DNA from: Alcaligenaceae bacterium
GTDB lineage: Bacteria; Pseudomonadota; Gammaproteobacteria; Burkholderiales; Burkholderiaceae_B
Reading direction: 5' to 3'
Assembly (NCBI GenBank): GCA_013416485.1
Contig: JACCEO010000005.1
Location: forward strand, 62,001-126,000
Length of the DNA: 64,000 nucleotides
The notes beneath the pieces are model-generated. The model saw nothing but the letters and a program-made list of their open reading frames with translations, was not told the origin of the DNA and ran no database searches. This document shows positions 19,644 to 27,155 of the stretch, piece by piece. Every line of letters starts with the position of its first letter. Position 1 is the first letter of the stretch. Both the position numbers and the translations under genes were made by a program.

Positions 19644-19647
<4 letters not shown>

Positions 19648-20438
19648 GGGGTAAAGAACAATTCCTGTAAGGCAAGGCCTGGTTCAGGTGCGCGCATAAA
19701 GGCTTCACCCACTAGGAAGGCATTGACGTTGTGTTCGCGCATTAGCTGCACATCGTCGGGGGTAAGTATCCCGCTTTCGGTAATTACTCGCTTGTCTTTG
19801 GGTATGACATCCAGTAACTGTATGGTGTTTTGTAGCGAAGTTTCAAAGGTGCGCAGGTTGCGGTTATTGATACCTAGCAATGGGGTTTTCAGTTGTAATG
19901 CGATATCCAGTTCGGCCTGATCATGTACTTCGACCAGTACGTCCATGCCCAACTCTATGGAAAGCTCTTCGAACTCTTTGAGTTGATGGATGCTTAGGGC
20001 AGCCACAATCAGCAAAATGCAATCGGCGCCCAAAGCCCGTGCATGAATGATCTGGTAAGGATCTATCATGAAGTCTTTGCGTAGCACCGGCAGCGTGCAG
20101 GCCGCACGCGCTTGACGCAGGTAGTCGTAGGAACCTTGGAAGTACTGCACATCGGTCAAGACTGACAAACAGGCGGCGCCATGTGCGGCGTACGAGCTGG
20201 CAATTTCTACCGGATTGAAGTTTTCCCGTATTACGCCTTTAGATGGTGAGGCTTTTTTAATTTCAGCAATGACGCCAGGTTTGCCTTGGGCGATTTTTTC
20301 TTCGATGGCACGGGCAAAACCTCGCAGGTCTTTGCGGATTTTTGCTTCACGTAGCAAGTCGGCTTCACTGCGCATCTGACGAGCTGTAGCGACTTCCGCT
20401 TTCTTGGTTTGTAAGATGGTGGCGAGTATATCGTTCAT
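19644..20438 (-). CDS. trpC: Indole-3-glycerol-phosphate synthase
   Basis: A 264-residue single-function TrpC, catalysing ring closure of carboxyphenylaminodeoxyribulose phosphate to indoleglycerol phosphate. The signature [12 protein letters not shown] lies near residue 58, with [12 protein letters not shown] and [12 protein letters not shown] further on, containing the catalytic Lys/Glu residues. Its start overlaps trpD by 4 bp and its stop overlaps the HIT gene. No PRAI (TrpF) domain is fused. Confidence 0.96.
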
Positions 20439-21472
20439 GCGGAAAACTTCCGTGTGTAAGTAATGAATTCGTCCAGTTTGCTGCGTGCAGCACCATTGGC
20501 GATAAGATCAAATGCCTGGTTCAGGCCGTCTTGTATGGATGTGGCTTTATTACCGGCGTAAATAGCGAGTCCAGCGTTAAAGCCTACGATATCACGTGCG
20601 GTTCCTGGTGTGTTTTCCAGGGCTTCAGTCAGCATGGTTGCTGACGCTTCGCGACTATCGACTTTTACGGCACGATTGGACACCATAGTCATGCCGAAAT
20701 CTTCAGGATGAATTTCGTATTCGCTAATAATGCCGTCTTTTAGTTCACCGACTAAGGTGGCTGCGCCTAAAGACGCTTCATCCATGCCGTCTTTGCCATG
20801 TACTACTAATACATGCTTAGAACCTAGACGTTGCAGTACGCGTACCTGTATACCTACCAGGTCAGGGTGAAATACGCCCATTAATTGATTGGCGCAATTG
20901 GCTGGGTTGGTCAATGGGCCCAGGATGTTGAATATGGTGCGTACCCCTAGCTCTTTGCGTACTGCTGCCACATTTTTCATGGCTCCGTGGTGGGCAGGTG
21001 CAAACATAAACCCTATACCAGTTGCAGTGATGCTGTCAGCAACTTGCTCTGGGTTTAGGGTCACACAGGCGCCAAGGGCTTCCAGTACATCGGCGCTACC
21101 TGATGAAGACGATGCGCTGCGGTTGCCATGCTTGGCTATTTTTACACCAGCGGCAGCGGCGACAAACATGGCTGCGGTAGAAATATTAAAGGTGTTGGAT
21201 CCGTCACCGCCGGTACCACACATGTCCAGTAAATTTTCTGGGTCTGGGGTTTGTACGGGCAAAGCGAATTCGCGCATGACCTGGGCTGCTGCTGTGATCT
21301 CACCTACGGTTTCTTTTTTAACCCGCAAACCCATCAGTAAGGCACTGGCAATTTGAGGTGACACTTCACCACGCATCAACATGCGCATCAAGTGCAGCAT
21401 TTCATCATGAAAAATTTCGCGATGTTCTATGCAGCGGGTTAGGGCTTGGGCAGGAGTAATCAAGGTTGACAT
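20435..21472 (-). CDS. trpD: Anthranilate phosphoribosyltransferase
   Basis: A 345-residue TrpD that adds phosphoribosyl to anthranilate. The glycine-rich [13 protein letters not shown] near residue 84 and the [21 protein letters not shown] loop fit the family. It lies 12 bp after trpG and overlaps trpC by 4 bp, so trpGDC is a compact operon controlled from the leader region upstream of trpG. Confidence 0.96.
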
Positions 21473-21484
21473 GATGGCTTTACA

Positions 21485-22051
21485 TTAAATGGTTAGAAAG
21501 TTTTTAAGTAGCGCGTGGCCATGCTCGCTAAGTACGGATTCAGGGTGGAACTGTACCCCATAGATGGCAAGGGTTTTATGGCGTACGGCCATGATTTCGC
21601 CGTCTTCTGTTTGGGCAGTGACTTCTAGGCAATCAGGTAGGCGATCCCGATCTATGGCCAGTGAATGGTAGCGAGTTACGGTATAAGGTGATGGTAAACC
21701 TTGGAATAGATCTGTGCCGTTATGGGTAATTAATGATGTTTTACCGTGCATTAGCTGTTTGGCTTTAATGACATATCCCCCAAAAGCGGCACCTATCGCT
21801 TGATGCCCCAGGCAAACACCCAGTATGGGCACTTTGCCAGCAAAGTGTTGGATCAGGGGTACGGAAATGCCTGCCTCGGCGGGCGAGCACGGTCCAGGCG
21901 ATACACAGATACGCGAGGGGTTCATAGCGACCACGTCAGCAATAGTGATCTGGTCATTGCGGTGTACATGGACGTCAGCACCCAGTTCGCCAAAATACTG
22001 CACCAGGTTGTAGGTAAATGAATCGTAGTTATCAAGCATCAAAATAGACAT
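21485..22051 (-). CDS. trpG: Anthranilate synthase component II (glutamine amidotransferase)
   Basis: A 188-residue class I glutamine amidotransferase that supplies ammonia to TrpE (possibly also to aminodeoxychorismate synthase). The nucleophile Cys80 lies in [10 protein letters not shown] and the His/Glu pair in [11 protein letters not shown]. The start chosen is the ATG at 22051 ([15 protein letters not shown]) with GGAG upstream, in place of a longer frame that adds 25 non-conserved residues. It is the first gene of trpGDC, unlinked from trpE by about 3.5 kb. Upstream is a 271-nt gap to a Trp-rich leader peptide. Confidence 0.95.
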
Positions 22052-22527: not shown

Positions 22528-23055
22528 TTACGCCTGCACTGCACGTTGGTTCCAAGGCATTTTCATTAGTAAACGGGCCATGCCGCAATAGCCTGTTATT
22601 CCGGCAAACATGAGGCCTACGCCCACGAAACCGGATAAGACGTGGAACTTGGGAGAGACCGTGGCGCCAAGTATTGCACCCAGGACAATGATGGCGCCGG
22701 CAGTAATTTGTACCTGACGTTGTAGTTCCAAGGGTTGCGAATGGTCTGCAACGATTGGCAGGCCAGCTTTTTTCCAAGCGTCTAAACCACCTTCCAGTAT
22801 ATAGGTGTCACAGGAGGTGCAATTGCTTAGTGTCTGTGCTTGCATTTGTGTGCGGTTACCCGAGCGGCAGTAAAAGATTACTGCATTCGTGTCTGCCAGA
22901 TCTACGTGTTGAGCTGCTAATTGTTCCATGGGAAGGTGGCGTGATTGTTGAATGTGCTCGCGTACGTATTCGTTGGATGCACGTATATCGATGAGTACAG
23001 CGCCTTTATCCATTAAGTCGCGGGCTGCTTCGGGAGTAAGAGATTTTAGTGACAT
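22528..23055 (-). CDS. Rhodanese domain fused to DUF2892 membrane domain (YgaP-like)
   Basis: A 175-residue protein: an N-terminal single rhodanese domain with active-site Cys63 in FYCRSGNRTQ, then a C-terminal DUF2892 part with two hydrophobic helices (ITAGAIIVLGAILGATV and LSGFVGVGLMFAGITGYCGMA). This is the layout of E. coli YgaP, an inner-membrane sulfurtransferase whose catalytic Cys is also residue 63. It would move sulfane sulfur from persulfides to an acceptor at the membrane. It is transcribed after and with the ArsR-type regulator, 22 bp downstream, and belongs to the sulfide module between trpGDC and trpE. Confidence 0.9.
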   Translation of the reverse strand: MSLKSLTPEAARDLMDKGAVLIDIRASNEYVREHIQQSRHLPMEQLAAQHVDLADTNAVIFYCRSGNRTQMQAQTLSNCTSCDTYILEGGLDAWKKAGLPIVADHSQPLELQRQVQITAGAIIVLGAILGATVSPKFHVLSGFVGVGLMFAGITGYCGMARLLMKMPWNQRAVQA

Positions 23056-23077: not shown

Positions 23078-23389
23078 CTACGGACAAAAAATGGTTTTAA
23101 GGGTGCCGATAAGTTTTTGCACGTCGGGATTGTCGATCCGGTAGTACAAGGTTTGGGATTCGCGTCGGTAGGTGACTAAGCCCTCGTCTCGCATTTTGGA
23201 TAAATGCTGAGAAAGCGCGGATTGGCTTAGTGTTACATGTTGGTGCAATGCGCCTACGCTAAGTTCACTGTGCTCTATAAGTAGGCATAGCAATAACAAA
23301 CGCTGTTCATTGCCTACTGTGCGTAGCATGGCAGCTGCTTTGGCAGCGCCTTCTTGCATAAAAAGGCGGTCTTTTTCAGTGAGCGCCAT
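23078..23389 (-). CDS. ArsR-family repressor, BigR/YgaV/SqrR-like persulfide sensor
   Basis: A 103-residue winged-helix regulator of the ArsR/SmtB class (LSVGALHQHVTLSQSALSQHLSKMRDEGLV as recognition region, described only by its edges: helix-turn-helix about residues 45-75). The two cysteines, at about residues 35 (LLLLCLL) and 102 (penultimate, IFCP), match the pair that forms an intra-subunit di- or tetrasulfide in BigR and SqrR, and the metal-site residues of ArsR are absent. The start at 23389 is favoured over 23395 because AAGG lies at a proper distance. A near-perfect palindrome 24 bp upstream is a likely autoregulatory operator, and a related one precedes the dioxygenase gene. Confidence 0.88.
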   Translation of the reverse strand: MALTEKDRLFMQEGAAKAAAMLRTVGNEQRLLLLCLLIEHSELSVGALHQHVTLSQSALSQHLSKMRDEGLVTYRRESQTLYYRIDNPDVQKLIGTLKTIFCP

Positions 23390-23412
23390 AATCATCCTTA
23401 GTTTGAAAATTT

Positions 23413-23434
23413 TATATTAGTATAATCTAATATA
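23413..23434. promoter_or_regulatory. Palindromic operator upstream of the ArsR-like gene
   Basis: Perfect 8-bp inverted repeat TATATTAG-N6-CTAATATA. AT-rich palindromes of this shape are what BigR-type regulators bind. A second, slightly imperfect copy lies before the persulfide dioxygenase gene, which supports a shared regulator. Confidence 0.75.
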
Positions 23435-23521
23435 TGCCTTTAAACAAGAATAAATTGCATAATTACAATGACATACAGCCATCTTAAAAGAGGGATGGCT
23501 GTTGCTAACGCGGTAGTGTGT

Positions 23522-23710
23522 TTAGGATTTAGGAGGCTTTATAGTGCAACGTTGTATGCCCAGTAGTGAGTATGCTGGACACCGCCCAGCCAGCCCGGTA
23601 AGCAAGGGGATGAGACCTAACCAACCCCACCAACCTACAGTTTCAGTAATGGCTAGTGCGATTAGCACTATGCCTGCGGTGATACGTAAAATCCGATCGA
23701 TTCCTTTCAT
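23522..23710 (-). CDS. DUF2892 family small membrane protein
   Basis: A 62-residue protein with two hydrophobic helices (ITAGIVLIALAITETV and WLGLIPLLTGLAGRCPAYSLLG) and the GRCPAY motif typical of DUF2892 (YgaP-like transmembrane domain). It is the stand-alone version of the domain fused to rhodanese in the neighbouring gene. Family function is not established, but it recurs with sulfide oxidation genes. It lies between the two operators, on the same strand as the regulator, 127 bp upstream of it. Confidence 0.82.
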   Translation of the reverse strand: MKGIDRILRITAGIVLIALAITETVGWWGWLGLIPLLTGLAGRCPAYSLLGIQRCTIKPPKS

Positions 23711-23776
23711 AGCATGCTCCTGAGTGAGGTTGACTAGTTACAGCAATTGTTATGTAGACATTGTTTCATGTTTTGC

Positions 23777-23798
23777 TAATTTAGTATATGCTAATATA
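23777..23798. promoter_or_regulatory. Second palindromic operator, upstream of the persulfide dioxygenase gene
   Basis: TAATTTAG-N6-CTAATATA. The right half is identical to the operator near 23.4 kb and the left half matches at 6 of 8 positions, with the same 6-nt spacer. It lies between the divergent DUF2892 and dioxygenase genes and could control both. Confidence 0.65.
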
Positions 23799-23836
23799 AA
23801 GAAGTAAACAAGTATTTCACTATGCCGGAGGTAGGA

Positions 23837-24718
23837 ATGAATATGTCCGCAGACATACGCGCTTTTTTTGATCCGTTAACGAACACGGTAAGTTATTTGG
23901 TATCTGACCCACAGACTAAGCAGGCGGCAGTGATAGATCCCGTGCTGGATTATGACCATAGTAGTGGTAAAGCGTCGATGGCGTCAGCAGAGAAAATATT
24001 GGCCGTCGCTCGTCTTCAGGGTTTGGATATTGTCTGGGTGCTGGAAACTCACGTACATGCCGATCACTTAAGTGCAGCGCCATACATTAAGCAGCATACA
24101 GGGGCCAAGGTAGCGATAGGCGAGCATATCTGCGATGTACAAACTATTTTTCGGCCCATGTTTAACGTAGATGACGTGTCTGAGGATGGTGGTGAGTTTG
24201 ACCGTTTGCTTACTGATGGTGAGCGCTTTTCTTTGGGTGATTTGACGATAGAGGTGCTGCATACTCCTGGCCATACGCCTGCCTGTATTTCTTACCGGAT
24301 AGGTGATGCTGTATTCGTGGGCGATACCTTGTTTATGCCCGACTACGGTACTGCACGGGCTGATTTCCCCGGTGGTAGCGCACGTACTTTATATCGCTCA
24401 ATACGGCGTTTGTTGTCTTTGCCTGCTGAAACTCGTTTATTTATGTGCCATGACTATAAAGCGTCAGGGCGTAATGACTATGCTTGGGAAACCACAGTAG
24501 CTCAGCAACTTAAGCACAATATTCATATTCATGCTGGTGTATCCGAGGACGAGTACGTTGCTATGCGCCAACAGCGCGACGCAGGTTTGGCAGCCCCTAG
24601 GCTGTTACTGCCATCTATACAGGTAAATATTCGTGCAGGTAATTTTCCTCAAGCAGAGTCCAATGGAGTGTCGTACTTAAAAATACCGGTTTGTATCCGT
24701 GAGGATAACGTGATCTAA
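23837..24718 (+). CDS. Metallo-beta-lactamase-fold persulfide dioxygenase (Blh/ETHE1-like)
   Basis: A 293-residue metallo-beta-lactamase-fold protein. The metal motif THVHADHL lies near residue 76, HTPGHTPAC and FVGDTLFMPDYGTARADFPGG follow, and the last His ligand is in MCHDYK. The DYGTARADFPGG stretch is typical of ETHE1/Blh persulfide dioxygenases, which oxidise glutathione persulfide to sulfite with O2 on a single iron. The start at 23837 is chosen since GGAGG lies 5 nt before it; the ATG at 23822 has no such site. It is divergent from the BigR-like regulator and rhodanese, the classic bigR-blh arrangement for sulfide detoxification. Confidence 0.92.
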   Translation: MNMSADIRAFFDPLTNTVSYLVSDPQTKQAAVIDPVLDYDHSSGKASMASAEKILAVARLQGLDIVWVLETHVHADHLSAAPYIKQHTGAKVAIGEHICDVQTIFRPMFNVDDVSEDGGEFDRLLTDGERFSLGDLTIEVLHTPGHTPACISYRIGDAVFVGDTLFMPDYGTARADFPGGSARTLYRSIRRLLSLPAETRLFMCHDYKASGRNDYAWETTVAQQLKHNIHIHAGVSEDEYVAMRQQRDAGLAAPRLLLPSIQVNIRAGNFPQAESNGVSYLKIPVCIREDNVI

Positions 24719-24787: not shown

Positions 24788-25138
24788 ATGACGGTAACGA
24801 GTTACAAAGCGTTAACCCAACAGATTGCGGGAAATTTGGTGCCTTTAAATAAAGCAGTGCCACAGGTGATGCAAAGTTTTGCAGAAATGGGCAAGGCGGC
24901 TAATAAGAATGGTGCCTTAGACCATAAAACCAAAGAGCTGATTGCATTGGCAATAGGTGTGGCGGTGCGTTGTGATGGTTGCATAGGATTTCATACCAAA
25001 GCGTTAGCTAAACTAGGTGCGACTCCAGAGGAAGTCCATGAAACGCTGGGGGTTGCAGTGTATATGGGTGGCGGACCGTCTGTGATGTATGCCGCGAACG
25101 CAGTGGCTGCGTTTAATGAGTTCACTGATGCAGGGTAG
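24788..25138 (+). CDS. Carboxymuconolactone decarboxylase family protein (AhpD-like)
   Basis: A 116-residue all-helical protein with the CxxC-x3-H motif RCDGCIGFHTKAL (Cys62, Cys65, His69) characteristic of AhpD-like peroxidase/disulfide proteins, not of true decarboxylases. It follows the persulfide dioxygenase on the same strand by 69 bp. The redox cysteine pair and the neighbours suggest a thiol or persulfide reaction; the exact role is unknown. Confidence 0.88.
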   Translation: MTVTSYKALTQQIAGNLVPLNKAVPQVMQSFAEMGKAANKNGALDHKTKELIALAIGVAVRCDGCIGFHTKALAKLGATPEEVHETLGVAVYMGGGPSVMYAANAVAAFNEFTDAG

Positions 25139-25191: not shown

Positions 25192-25566
25192 ATGATGCAG
25201 CAGACTGATTTTGTAAGTACTTTATTTGATGGCTATAGCAATCCGGATAAAGTGACAGTGGCCTTTACTATGGCCATGAATGCAGCACTAAAAGGACACA
25301 GTGCGACTATTATTCTAATGGCCGGTGCGGTTGAGTTAGGTAAGCCAAATGCAACGTCCAAGATCAATATTGGTGCGCCATTTCAGCCAGTCGCAGAACT
25401 ATTAAGTAAGTATATAGAGTTAGGCGGGTGTATCGCTGTATGTAGTTCGTGCATGGTGCATAACGGTTTTTCACAGGCTGATATGGACGAGCGTTATCAG
25501 ATAATTTCCGCTGCCGATGTTGTGGATTTACTGATGGGGGCTAAGGGCAGCCTGCAGGTTAGCTAG
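25192..25566 (+). CDS. DsrE/DsrF-like sulfur-relay protein
   Basis: A 124-residue DsrE-fold protein (VTVAFTMAMNAALKGHSATIILMAGAVE at the start, described by its edges). It has cysteines near residues 82-86 in GCIAVCSSCMVHNGF, the loop where sulfur carriers of this family bind sulfane sulfur. It ends the rightward part of the sulfide module and is followed by a strong terminator. An alternative ATG one codon in (25195) fits the AGGAAG ribosome site slightly better. Confidence 0.85.
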   Translation: MMQQTDFVSTLFDGYSNPDKVTVAFTMAMNAALKGHSATIILMAGAVELGKPNATSKINIGAPFQPVAELLSKYIELGGCIAVCSSCMVHNGFSQADMDERYQIISAADVVDLLMGAKGSLQVS

Positions 25567-25634: not shown

Positions 25635-27155
25635 TTAAATCGGTTCATCCAGGCCAAACTGGACTTGTTCGGCTGCTCGCAATACAGCACGAGCTTTGGC
25701 TTCGGTCTCTTCCCATTCTTTTTCTGGATCAGAGTCAGCCACTATGCCAGCGGCGGCTTGGACATACAGCATGCCGTCTTTGATGATGCCTGTACGTATG
25801 GCTATGGCCACGTCCATTTCGCCGCCATAGCTTAGGTAACCTGCTGCCCCGCCATAGATACCGCGACGTACGGGTTCTAGCTCGTCTATCACTTCCATGG
25901 CACGTACTTTGGGCGCCCCAGTTAGGGTGCCGGCCGGAAATGATGCACGCAGTACGTCCATATTGCTTAGCCCTTCATTGAGTTCGCCGGTGACGTTGGA
26001 CACCAAGTGCATGACGTGGGAGTAGCGTTCTATGGCCATAGTGTCGCTGACTTCTACGGTACCGGTTTTGGCGACCCGACCTATGTCGTTACGGGCCAGG
26101 TCAATCAGCATGACGTGTTCGGCCCTTTCTTTGGGGTCGGCCAGTAGTTCATCGGCCAGTTTGGCGTCTTGTTCCGGAGTGGCACCACGTGGCCGGGTGC
26201 CAGCCAGAGGGCGTATGGTAATCATGGTTTTTTGGCGATCTGCTTCGCTGATGATTTCCTGACGGACTAGAATTTCTGGTGAAGAGCCGACAACCTGGAA
26301 GCTATCGAAGTTCCAGTAGTACATGTATGGCGAGGGGTTTAGCGAACGCAAAGAGCGGTACAAGGACAGTGGCGAGTCACGGAAAGGTTTCGCAATCACC
26401 TGACCTATTTGTACTTGCATTAAGTCGCCGGCCTCTATGTATTCCTTGGCTTTTTTTACTGCATTCAGATAATCTTCCTTGCGGAAGTTACGCTGGGCTT
26501 CGGTTTGCAGGCTGGCGTAAGCATAAGGGATCACAACGGGCTGACGTAGTTTTTCGCGTAGCTCCTTCAGGCGGCGCTTAGCGCGTGCGTAGCTTTCGGG
26601 TTGTGCAGGGTCGGCGTACACCAGCAGGTAGGTGCGACCCGCTAGGTTGTCCACAATCACCAACTCATCAATTTGCAACAGCATGATGTCAGGAGTGCCC
26701 TCTTCTTGGCCTGCAGGGAAGGGCTTGGTGGAGGGGCCTAGGCGTGGTTCGATATGGCGCACGGCGTCGTAACCAAAGTAGCCCGCTAAACCGCCTGCAA
26801 ATCTGGGCATGCCTGGGCGTATGGCTACTTTGAAACGCTGTTGGTATTGCTCTATGAATTGCAGTGGGTCACCGGTGTGAGCTTCTATGACATTGCCCAG
26901 ATGCACCACTTCAGTGATGTTGCCTGTGGCACGAATAACTGTTTTGGCAGGTAGGCCTATAAACGAATAGCGTCCGAAGCGCTCGCCGCCGACCACTGAC
27001 TCTAGTAAACAGCTGTTACGACCGCCTTCAGGACCGCTGTGGGCTAGCTTCAGATAAATGGCCAGTGGCGTGTCAAGGTCAGCGTAGGTTTCTGTAATTA
27101 ACGGTATGCGGTTGTAGCCTTGTGCGGCCAGTGCATTAAATTCTATTTCTGTCAT
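25635..27155 (-). CDS. trpE: Anthranilate synthase component I
   Basis: A 506-residue chorismate-utilising enzyme converting chorismate to anthranilate with ammonia from TrpG. Typical segments are IRPLAGTRPRGATPEQD near residue 326, ARNDIGRVAKTGTVEV, SFPAGTLTGAPKVRAMEVIDELEP and GYLSYGGEMDVAIAIRT (each described by its edges). The gene lies downstream of rpe and gph on the same strand, as in other Burkholderiales, but trpG does not follow; a sulfide module intervenes. Upstream are a Trp-rich leader peptide and an attenuator hairpin, so expression should respond to charged tRNA-Trp. Confidence 0.96.
   Translation of the reverse strand: MTEIEFNALAAQGYNRIPLITETYADLDTPLAIYLKLAHSGPEGGRNSCLLESVVGGERFGRYSFIGLPAKTVIRATGNITEVVHLGNVIEAHTGDPLQFIEQYQQRFKVAIRPGMPRFAGGLAGYFGYDAVRHIEPRLGPSTKPFPAGQEEGTPDIMLLQIDELVIVDNLAGRTYLLVYADPAQPESYARAKRRLKELREKLRQPVVIPYAYASLQTEAQRNFRKEDYLNAVKKAKEYIEAGDLMQVQIGQVIAKPFRDSPLSLYRSLRSLNPSPYMYYWNFDSFQVVGSSPEILVRQEIISEADRQKTMITIRPLAGTRPRGATPEQDAKLADELLADPKERAEHVMLIDLARNDIGRVAKTGTVEVSDTMAIERYSHVMHLVSNVTGELNEGLSNMDVLRASFPAGTLTGAPKVRAMEVIDELEPVRRGIYGGAAGYLSYGGEMDVAIAIRTGIIKDGMLYVQAAAGIVADSDPEKEWEETEAKARAVLRAAEQVQFGLDEPI

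Follow-up and report, generated by a model that had tools for sequence, protein, structure and literature searches.

Two palindromes as candidate operators of a YgaV/HlyU-like regulator in a sulfur gene cluster of an Alcaligenaceae bacterium

A sulfur gene cluster and its two palindromes

The window, that is, the whole 64,000-nucleotide stretch of Alcaligenaceae bacterium DNA analysed here, carries a sulfur cluster organized in three transcription units. On the minus strand, the gene for a 105-amino-acid regulator of the ArsR/SmtB type and of the YgaV/HlyU/BigR group (23078..23395; PF01022), with Cys37 and Cys104 as its presumed sensor residues, is followed 22 bp downstream by that of a YgaP-like rhodanese with a C-terminal transmembrane part (22528..23055; PF00581 and PF11127), the order known as ygaVP. 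A second unit on the same strand consists of a gene for a small YgaP-like_TM (DUF2892) membrane protein of 62 amino acids (23522..23710; PF11127, 68.1 bits against a cut-off of 25.3), which lies between the two palindromes described below and was missed by the earlier note on this DNA. On the plus strand, the gene for a metallo-beta-lactamase protein of the persulfide dioxygenase type (23837..24718) precedes those of two probable operon partners, an AhpD-like protein of the carboxymuconolactone decarboxylase family (24788..25138; PF02627, TIGR00778) and a DsrE/DsrF-like family protein (25192..25566; PF02635).

The dioxygenase corresponds to the stand-alone dioxygenase part of a Blh-type protein. 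It matched the Blh profile NF040641 at positions 140-420 of 423 alone, with 388.3 bits against a cut-off of 625; it is therefore outside the bifunctional Blh class, which has both domains, as the sulfurtransferase part is absent. Its close structural matches were the metallo-beta-lactamase family entries 9g8t and 4ysk, and the match to the ETHE1 persulfide dioxygenase 4chl was weaker. The gene probably starts at 23837 and not at 23822, since a GGAGG sequence is present at 23827-23831.

The sulfur cluster sits inside a trp region, with trpC, trpD and trpG (19644-22051) on one side and trpE (25635-27155) on the other. In a genome of the same genus (G001, locus L066) the cluster is likewise flanked by trpE and trpG-D-C, and ygaP and trpG are about 3.5 kb farther apart there; in genome G052 (L097) the dioxygenase gene alone has the same trp placement.

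Two candidate operators, neither of them assigned to a strand, were identified in this cluster. Site 1 (23413..23434) is an exact TATATTAGTATAATCTAATATA, a perfect palindrome of the form TATATTAG-N6-CTAATATA located 17 bp upstream of the regulator gene, just as the earlier note had described it. Site 2 (23777..23798) reads TAATTTAGTATATGCTAATATA, or TAATTTAG-N6-CTAATATA, and lies in the divergent promoter region of the DUF2892 and dioxygenase genes, 66 bp upstream of the former and, with the start at 23837, 38 bp upstream of the latter. It has two mismatches with respect to the pattern of site 1, both in the left arm; the right arm, the length of the 6-bp spacer and six of the eight left-arm positions are the same, which confirmed the second half of that description.

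A perfect inverted repeat of this geometry is by itself unremarkable: the window contains four 8-N6-8 repeats, and 39 when spacers of 0-12 are allowed (those four included). The palindromes carry weight because of the second copy, their position and their recurrence elsewhere. With up to three mismatches, the pattern was found in the window at sites 1 and 2 alone, where shuffles gave an expectation of 0.15, and two such matches were reached by 2 of 100 window shuffles. In the whole genome (2,779,579 bases) sites 1 and 2 were again the only matches with two or fewer mismatches. Allowing three mismatches gave 8 places in the genome versus 9 for the reversed control pattern, an absence of excess that points to no further regulon members. 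Thus, the "sulfide regulon" previously proposed from these palindromes stands for this cluster, and the genome-wide palindrome search did not extend it beyond.

A consensus scan of positions 23380-23840 yielded two promoter-like matches, versus 1.6 in shuffles, and no terminators. Between the end of the DUF2892 gene and site 1 there is an 8-bp hairpin, CAGCCATC/GATGGCTG (23476-23501), that lacks a T run and is possibly a weak terminator separating DUF2892 from the regulator operon.

The regulator and its cysteine pair

The regulator is a winged helix-turn-helix protein of the ArsR type, scoring 45.7 bits with PF01022 (cut-off 22) and 80.7 with NF033788 (cut-off 55). Among solved structures its best match was HlyU (3jth and 4k2e), followed by YgaV (3cuo), NolR (4omy) and BigR (3pqj). 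It also matched the entries 6o8k-6o8o/13ct, titled solely "ArsR family regulator", which we take to be SqrR. Cys37 and Cys104, of which the first precedes the recognition helix and the second lies near the C-terminus, were conserved in all 15 regulators aligned, among them YgaV of E. coli (41% identity), and they align with the Cys residues of YgaV and HlyU. Both were also present in 29 of the 30 loci of the family set described below; the second is numbered 103 in some of them owing to a one-residue gap, and in the remaining locus (L030) the match stops before the second Cys.

The counterparts of this pair in YgaV, C31 and C98, are reported to be joined by a tetrasulfide bridge (PMC9774250), and those of HlyU are Cys38 and Cys104 (PMC4330345). 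The binding of HlyU to DNA was abolished by glutathione persulfide and not by H2O2 (PMC10509353); a persulfide-driven loss of DNA binding by way of a sulfur bridge has been reported for both HlyU and YgaV (PMC9774250, PMC10509353). Two further traits place the protein in the persulfide-sensing ArsR group: its gene is linked to persulfide-consuming genes (rhodanese, dioxygenase, DsrE-like), and its own promoter region carries a putative operator palindrome, namely site 1, with an equivalent in 69 of 80 related loci.

The earlier note had ascribed to this protein the Cys pair of BigR and SqrR. A Cys pair is present, aligned here with those of HlyU and YgaV. With the NCBIfam model for BigR, NF040642, the regulator scored 75.3 bits (74.9 in the genome search) against an equivalog cut-off of 155, and the operator of SqrR was not recovered from its relatives (see below); for these two reasons the regulator is best named YgaV/HlyU-like, and not BigR or SqrR.

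Recurrence of the palindrome in relatives

The palindrome was searched in two sets of relatives of the regulator. In the family set, 30 loci of 81 rows were examined, and a site was defined as a match with three or fewer mismatches no more than 150 bp upstream of the regulator gene. Regulators at least 62% identical to that of the window had a site in 16 of 18 loci, the window's own included, the exceptions being L014 and L022; at 38-57% identity the figure was 2 of 12 (L026 and L030). In genome G052 (L014/L075) the site is found between the regulator gene and ygaP and not upstream of the regulator. Three further paralogue loci comprised two with a site close upstream (L070 and L077) and one without (L085).

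In G001, the genome of the same genus mentioned above, a single site, TATATTAGATTAAACTAATTTA (L066), is common to the divergent regulator and dioxygenase genes. It lies 18 bp from the regulator gene (17 bp for site 1 of the window) and 38 bp from the dioxygenase gene (38 bp for site 2). Because this single site matches the spacing of site 1 on one side and that of site 2 on the other, the two sites of the window give the impression of a single bidirectional operator whose ends have since been parted, presumably by the DUF2892 gene. Dioxygenase genes of the same clade that lie away from a regulator gene numbered five. A site precedes two of them, at 31 bp from the aligned start in G059 (L096) and at 206 bp in G052 (L097); the other three have none (G025:C9, G036:C5 and a second copy in G007:C1).

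The wider set was built by scanning one genome per species for the peptides LSQSALSQH, which is the recognition helix, and L[AS][KR]MR[EDQ]EGL; from at least 590 pattern matches and at least 554 relatives, the best 80 loci were kept. These loci are mutually related, and at least four (L109, L110, L114 and L121) are also in the family set. They include Alcaligenaceae, Bradyrhizobium, Sphingomonas, Methylobacterium, Moraxella and Pseudoxanthomonas, which we take to represent Alcaligenaceae plus other betaproteobacteria, many alphaproteobacteria and a few gammaproteobacteria (the last two genera). Within 220 bp upstream of the regulator gene plus 15 bp, a site with three or fewer mismatches was found in 69 of these 80 loci (the best 80 of at least 554 relatives). 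As controls, dinucleotide shuffles matched in 2 of 4000 cases, the reversed pattern in none of the 80 loci, and stretches elsewhere in these loci in 1 of 1679. Six of the 11 loci without such a site contain an exact TTAG-N6-CTAA.

The same motif emerged from a motif-free scan of every 4-bp gapped palindrome, with spacers of 2-12, over the 80 upstream regions: TTAG-N6-CTAA ranked first and was exact in 64 of 80 loci. The second commonest gapped palindrome in these upstream regions was TCGA-N8-TCGA (28/80). Across the 68 distinct sites, TTAG and CTAA held 1.4-2 bits and the left flank less than 0.3 bits, in a matrix that is descriptive and no proof, as the sites were picked by match. A divergent dioxygenase gene was present in 46 of the 80 loci, and in 45 of these 46 the site is placed between the two genes. 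In 41 of the 80 loci the site was combined with the divergent dioxygenase gene and ygaP while DUF2892 and AhpD were both undetected, and all of these elements were present in one more. Judged by this comparison of sequences, the palindrome is a phylogenetic footprint of the regulator group.

A second clade of dioxygenases (49-59% identical) had an exact TTAG-N6-CTAA upstream in 0 of 21 loci and one within a single mismatch in 2 of 21, as in shuffles; the motif therefore belongs to the regulator group. In this second clade (L199-L219) many of the upstream regions contain other AT-rich repeats, with palindromes of the TATA/ATAT type leading the scan (11/21), and these are perhaps the operator of the paralogous regulators of 38-44% identity. 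Two other approaches were discarded. The SqrR-type ATTC-N8-GAAT, considered as a common motif, was exact in none of the 80 loci and within one mismatch in 8 of 80, versus 6.8% in shuffles. The number of genomes with any site (46 of 101 with two or fewer mismatches) was uninformative, as AT-rich genomes match the reversed control too.

The palindrome also occurs before other genes. Perfect copies precede a gene for a dihydrolipoyl-dehydrogenase-like flavoprotein (NF004939, above the cut-off in both) in G026 (L091:3944-3965) and G023 (L092:6341-6362), on other contigs than the regulator gene, and this flavoprotein gene is likely an extra regulon member in both genomes. A palindrome with two mismatches lies before an RND efflux adaptor gene (HlyD_D23) at L073:6212-6233 and L102:5669-5690. 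The adaptor gene adjoins a regulator gene in L073, where an AcrB-type gene follows, and a gene for a 33% paralogue in L102; L073 and L086 also have sulfate-permease (SulP) genes in the neighbourhood. Perfect palindromes were also detected before a thioredoxin-reductase gene in G039 (L094:7178-7199), a genome with no regulator match at an E value of 1e-8, and directly before a DUF4395 open reading frame in G022 (L093:3565-3586). The two-mismatch sites L098 and L099 adjoin no recognised sulfur gene.

Many of the sites are part of a larger structure. The best site was accompanied, at a distance of exactly 15 bp, by a second match with five or fewer mismatches in 52 of 69 loci, while other offsets within 40 bp were found in at most 6 loci each, and in the family set the 15-bp partner (five or fewer mismatches) accompanied 14 of 18 sites. 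As this second match overlaps bases of the first dyad, the third half-site, external to that dyad, was counted separately and is taken as the main figure: its 4-bp core was exact on either side at 29 of 69 sites, against 0.65 expected from shuffled flanks, and within one mismatch at 44 of 69, against 7.7 expected, and an exact third core was found at other distances in no more than 2 loci. Aligned over both dyads, 61 of the 80 loci (eight or fewer mismatches) gave a double operator of the form TATATTAG-N6-CTAAATTAG-N6-CTAATATA. No base is shared between the 4-bp cores of the two dyads and 15 bp corresponds to about one and a half turns of the helix, so that two dimers could bind side by side. 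In the window, the 15-bp partner of site 2 is weak (23762-23783, five mismatches), and site 1 has none (8 and 9 mismatches).

A putative persulfide-responsive operator

We propose, with a probability of roughly 85%, that the neighbouring ArsR-type persulfide sensor of the YgaV/HlyU/BigR group uses the two palindromes as its operators and would repress the genes on both sides until released by persulfide. The reduced regulator dimer would insert its recognition helices in two TTAG/CTAA half-sites one helical turn apart. Site 1 is predicted to overlap the promoter of the regulator-ygaP operon, so that a dimer bound there would block transcription; site 2 would overlap the promoter of the dioxygenase-AhpD-DsrE operon, and probably that of the divergent DUF2892 gene as well, and would block transcription in the same manner. 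By analogy with the homologues, upon a rise in persulfide Cys37 and Cys104 would become bridged by sulfur and the dimer would leave the DNA, allowing the expression of the persulfide-consuming rhodanese, membrane and dioxygenase genes. Self-repression of the regulator would then reset the system. Many relatives may manage both directions with one operator placed between the divergently oriented regulator and dioxygenase genes; in this species, with the DUF2892 gene between the promoters, each side would have one operator copy.

The earlier note had suggested that the two sites let one sensor control both directions. This idea is supported because the palindrome goes with the relatives of the regulator in many genera, because it lies between the divergent genes in 45 of 46 pairs and because the Cys pair is kept in 15 of 15 regulators. 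It also needs qualification: three of the five dioxygenase genes separate from a regulator gene lack a site, many relatives have one shared operator, and the genes form three transcription units here.

It seems highly improbable that the palindromes, instead of being operators, represent promoter -10 elements or AT-rich inverted repeats that arose by chance; the window does hold four perfect repeats of the same geometry and intergenic DNA is AT-rich, but a match as good was almost never reached in dinucleotide shuffles, with the reversed pattern or in other stretches of these loci, and the palindrome scan made with no motif in hand arrived at the same motif. A less improbable reading, although we still doubt it, is that site 1 is the sole working operator and site 2 a decayed copy, the dioxygenase operon being constitutive or otherwise controlled. 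The two deviating left-arm positions of site 2 and the three site-free dioxygenase genes of the same clade would fit with this, but the TAATTTAG/CTAAATTA arm of site 2 is a common natural form, found again in relatives at 21 of 69 sites and in many sites of the family set, and the 38-bp distance to the aligned dioxygenase start is the same as in G001.

The regulator might instead bind both sites and sense another signal, such as a metal, an organotin or a peroxide. The ArsR family is diverse, there is an earlier report that tributyltin derepresses ygaVP of E. coli (PMC9774250), and the motif is found before the RND efflux adaptor genes of L073 and L102; against this stand the invariant Cys37/Cys104 pair aligned with the bridge-forming residues of YgaV and the pair of HlyU, neighbour genes of the dioxygenase, rhodanese and DsrE types, and the indifference of HlyU to H2O2 noted above. 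We consider this alternative unlikely, though the strongest of the three, and favor release of the repressor by persulfide.

The proposed operators can be compared with those of known systems. The ygaVP genes of E. coli show the same succession of a regulator and a rhodanese-membrane protein, YgaP, and share the two sensor Cys residues. YgaV binds to the promoter of its own gene, with a footprint in the vicinity of the transcription start, which precedes the start codon by 28 bp, and its authors found the site similar to the ATTC-N8-GAAT of SqrR (PMC9774250). In this promoter we found TAATTTAG-N6-CTTAAATA, which stops 3 bp short of the ygaV start, a modest match of four mismatches that was equalled by 85 of 2000 shuffles; a longer reading, with the same end 3 bp before the start codon, is TAGTTTAG-N6-CTTAATTTAG-N6-CTTAAATA. 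Unlike the system described here, the regulator of E. coli is 41% identical, its half-site is CTTAA and not CTAA, and strain K-12 has no adjoining dioxygenase gene.

HlyU of V. cholerae, the best match among solved structures, has an identical recognition helix (LSQSALSQHL), but it activates a hemolysin gene. A 35-bp HlyU binding oligonucleotide contains TAAATTAA-N6-CTAAATTA, again with four mismatches and a modest match (24 of 2000 shuffles were as good), and, read as TAAATTAA-N6-CTAAATTAG, includes the CTAAATTAG that forms the centre of the double operator. The link of this oligonucleotide to TTAG-N6-CTAA is suggestive only, because the authors of the HlyU work described a 17-bp palindrome in another register, saw no effect of four single-base changes and reported the sites to lack a strict consensus (PMC4330345).

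BigR of Xylella and Agrobacterium, encoded in the bigR operon with Blh, is a sulfide- and polysulfide-responsive ArsR repressor of a sulfur dioxygenase (PMC5823870); the present system differs in that its regulator is under the NF040642 cut-off and its dioxygenase has no sulfurtransferase part. SqrR of Rhodobacter capsulatus shares the Cys-pair persulfide sensor, and the geometry of its deduced operator, ATTC-N8-GAAT (PMC9774250), is that of ATTA-N8-TAAT here, with the difference that A replaces C at the fourth base. NolR of Sinorhizobium, which represses nodulation genes and has the consensus (A/T)TTAG-N9-A(T/A) (PMC12445080), has a nearly identical recognition helix and a TTAG half-site, but an Asp at the position of Cys37. 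Among the open-access papers covered by our searches, a set without those on the BigR operator, we found neither the TTAG-N6-CTAA box nor the 15-bp double operator stated, and the box may well be in print.

The third half-site suggests a possible origin for this arrangement, to which we give even odds. The ancestral operator would have been a 37-bp double operator, with two abutting dyads 15 bp apart meeting in the palindromic 9-bp block CTAAATTAG and occupied by two dimers on roughly opposite faces of the helix, acting as a cooperative bidirectional switch of the regulator and dioxygenase genes. Site 1 would be a simplified, single-dyad descendant that arose after the DUF2892 gene parted the promoters, each of which kept or gained its own copy.

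In summary, our analysis proposes a specific operator code for a widespread group of persulfide sensors, TTAG-N6-CTAA, joined in many loci by a third half-site at a distance of 15 bp. It also provides one description that would cover the DNA bound by both YgaV of E. coli and HlyU of V. cholerae. This code would set the regulator group apart from the second dioxygenase-linked clade, which lacks the motif, and it predicts regulon members elsewhere, such as the genes for the dihydrolipoyl-dehydrogenase-like flavoprotein and for RND efflux.
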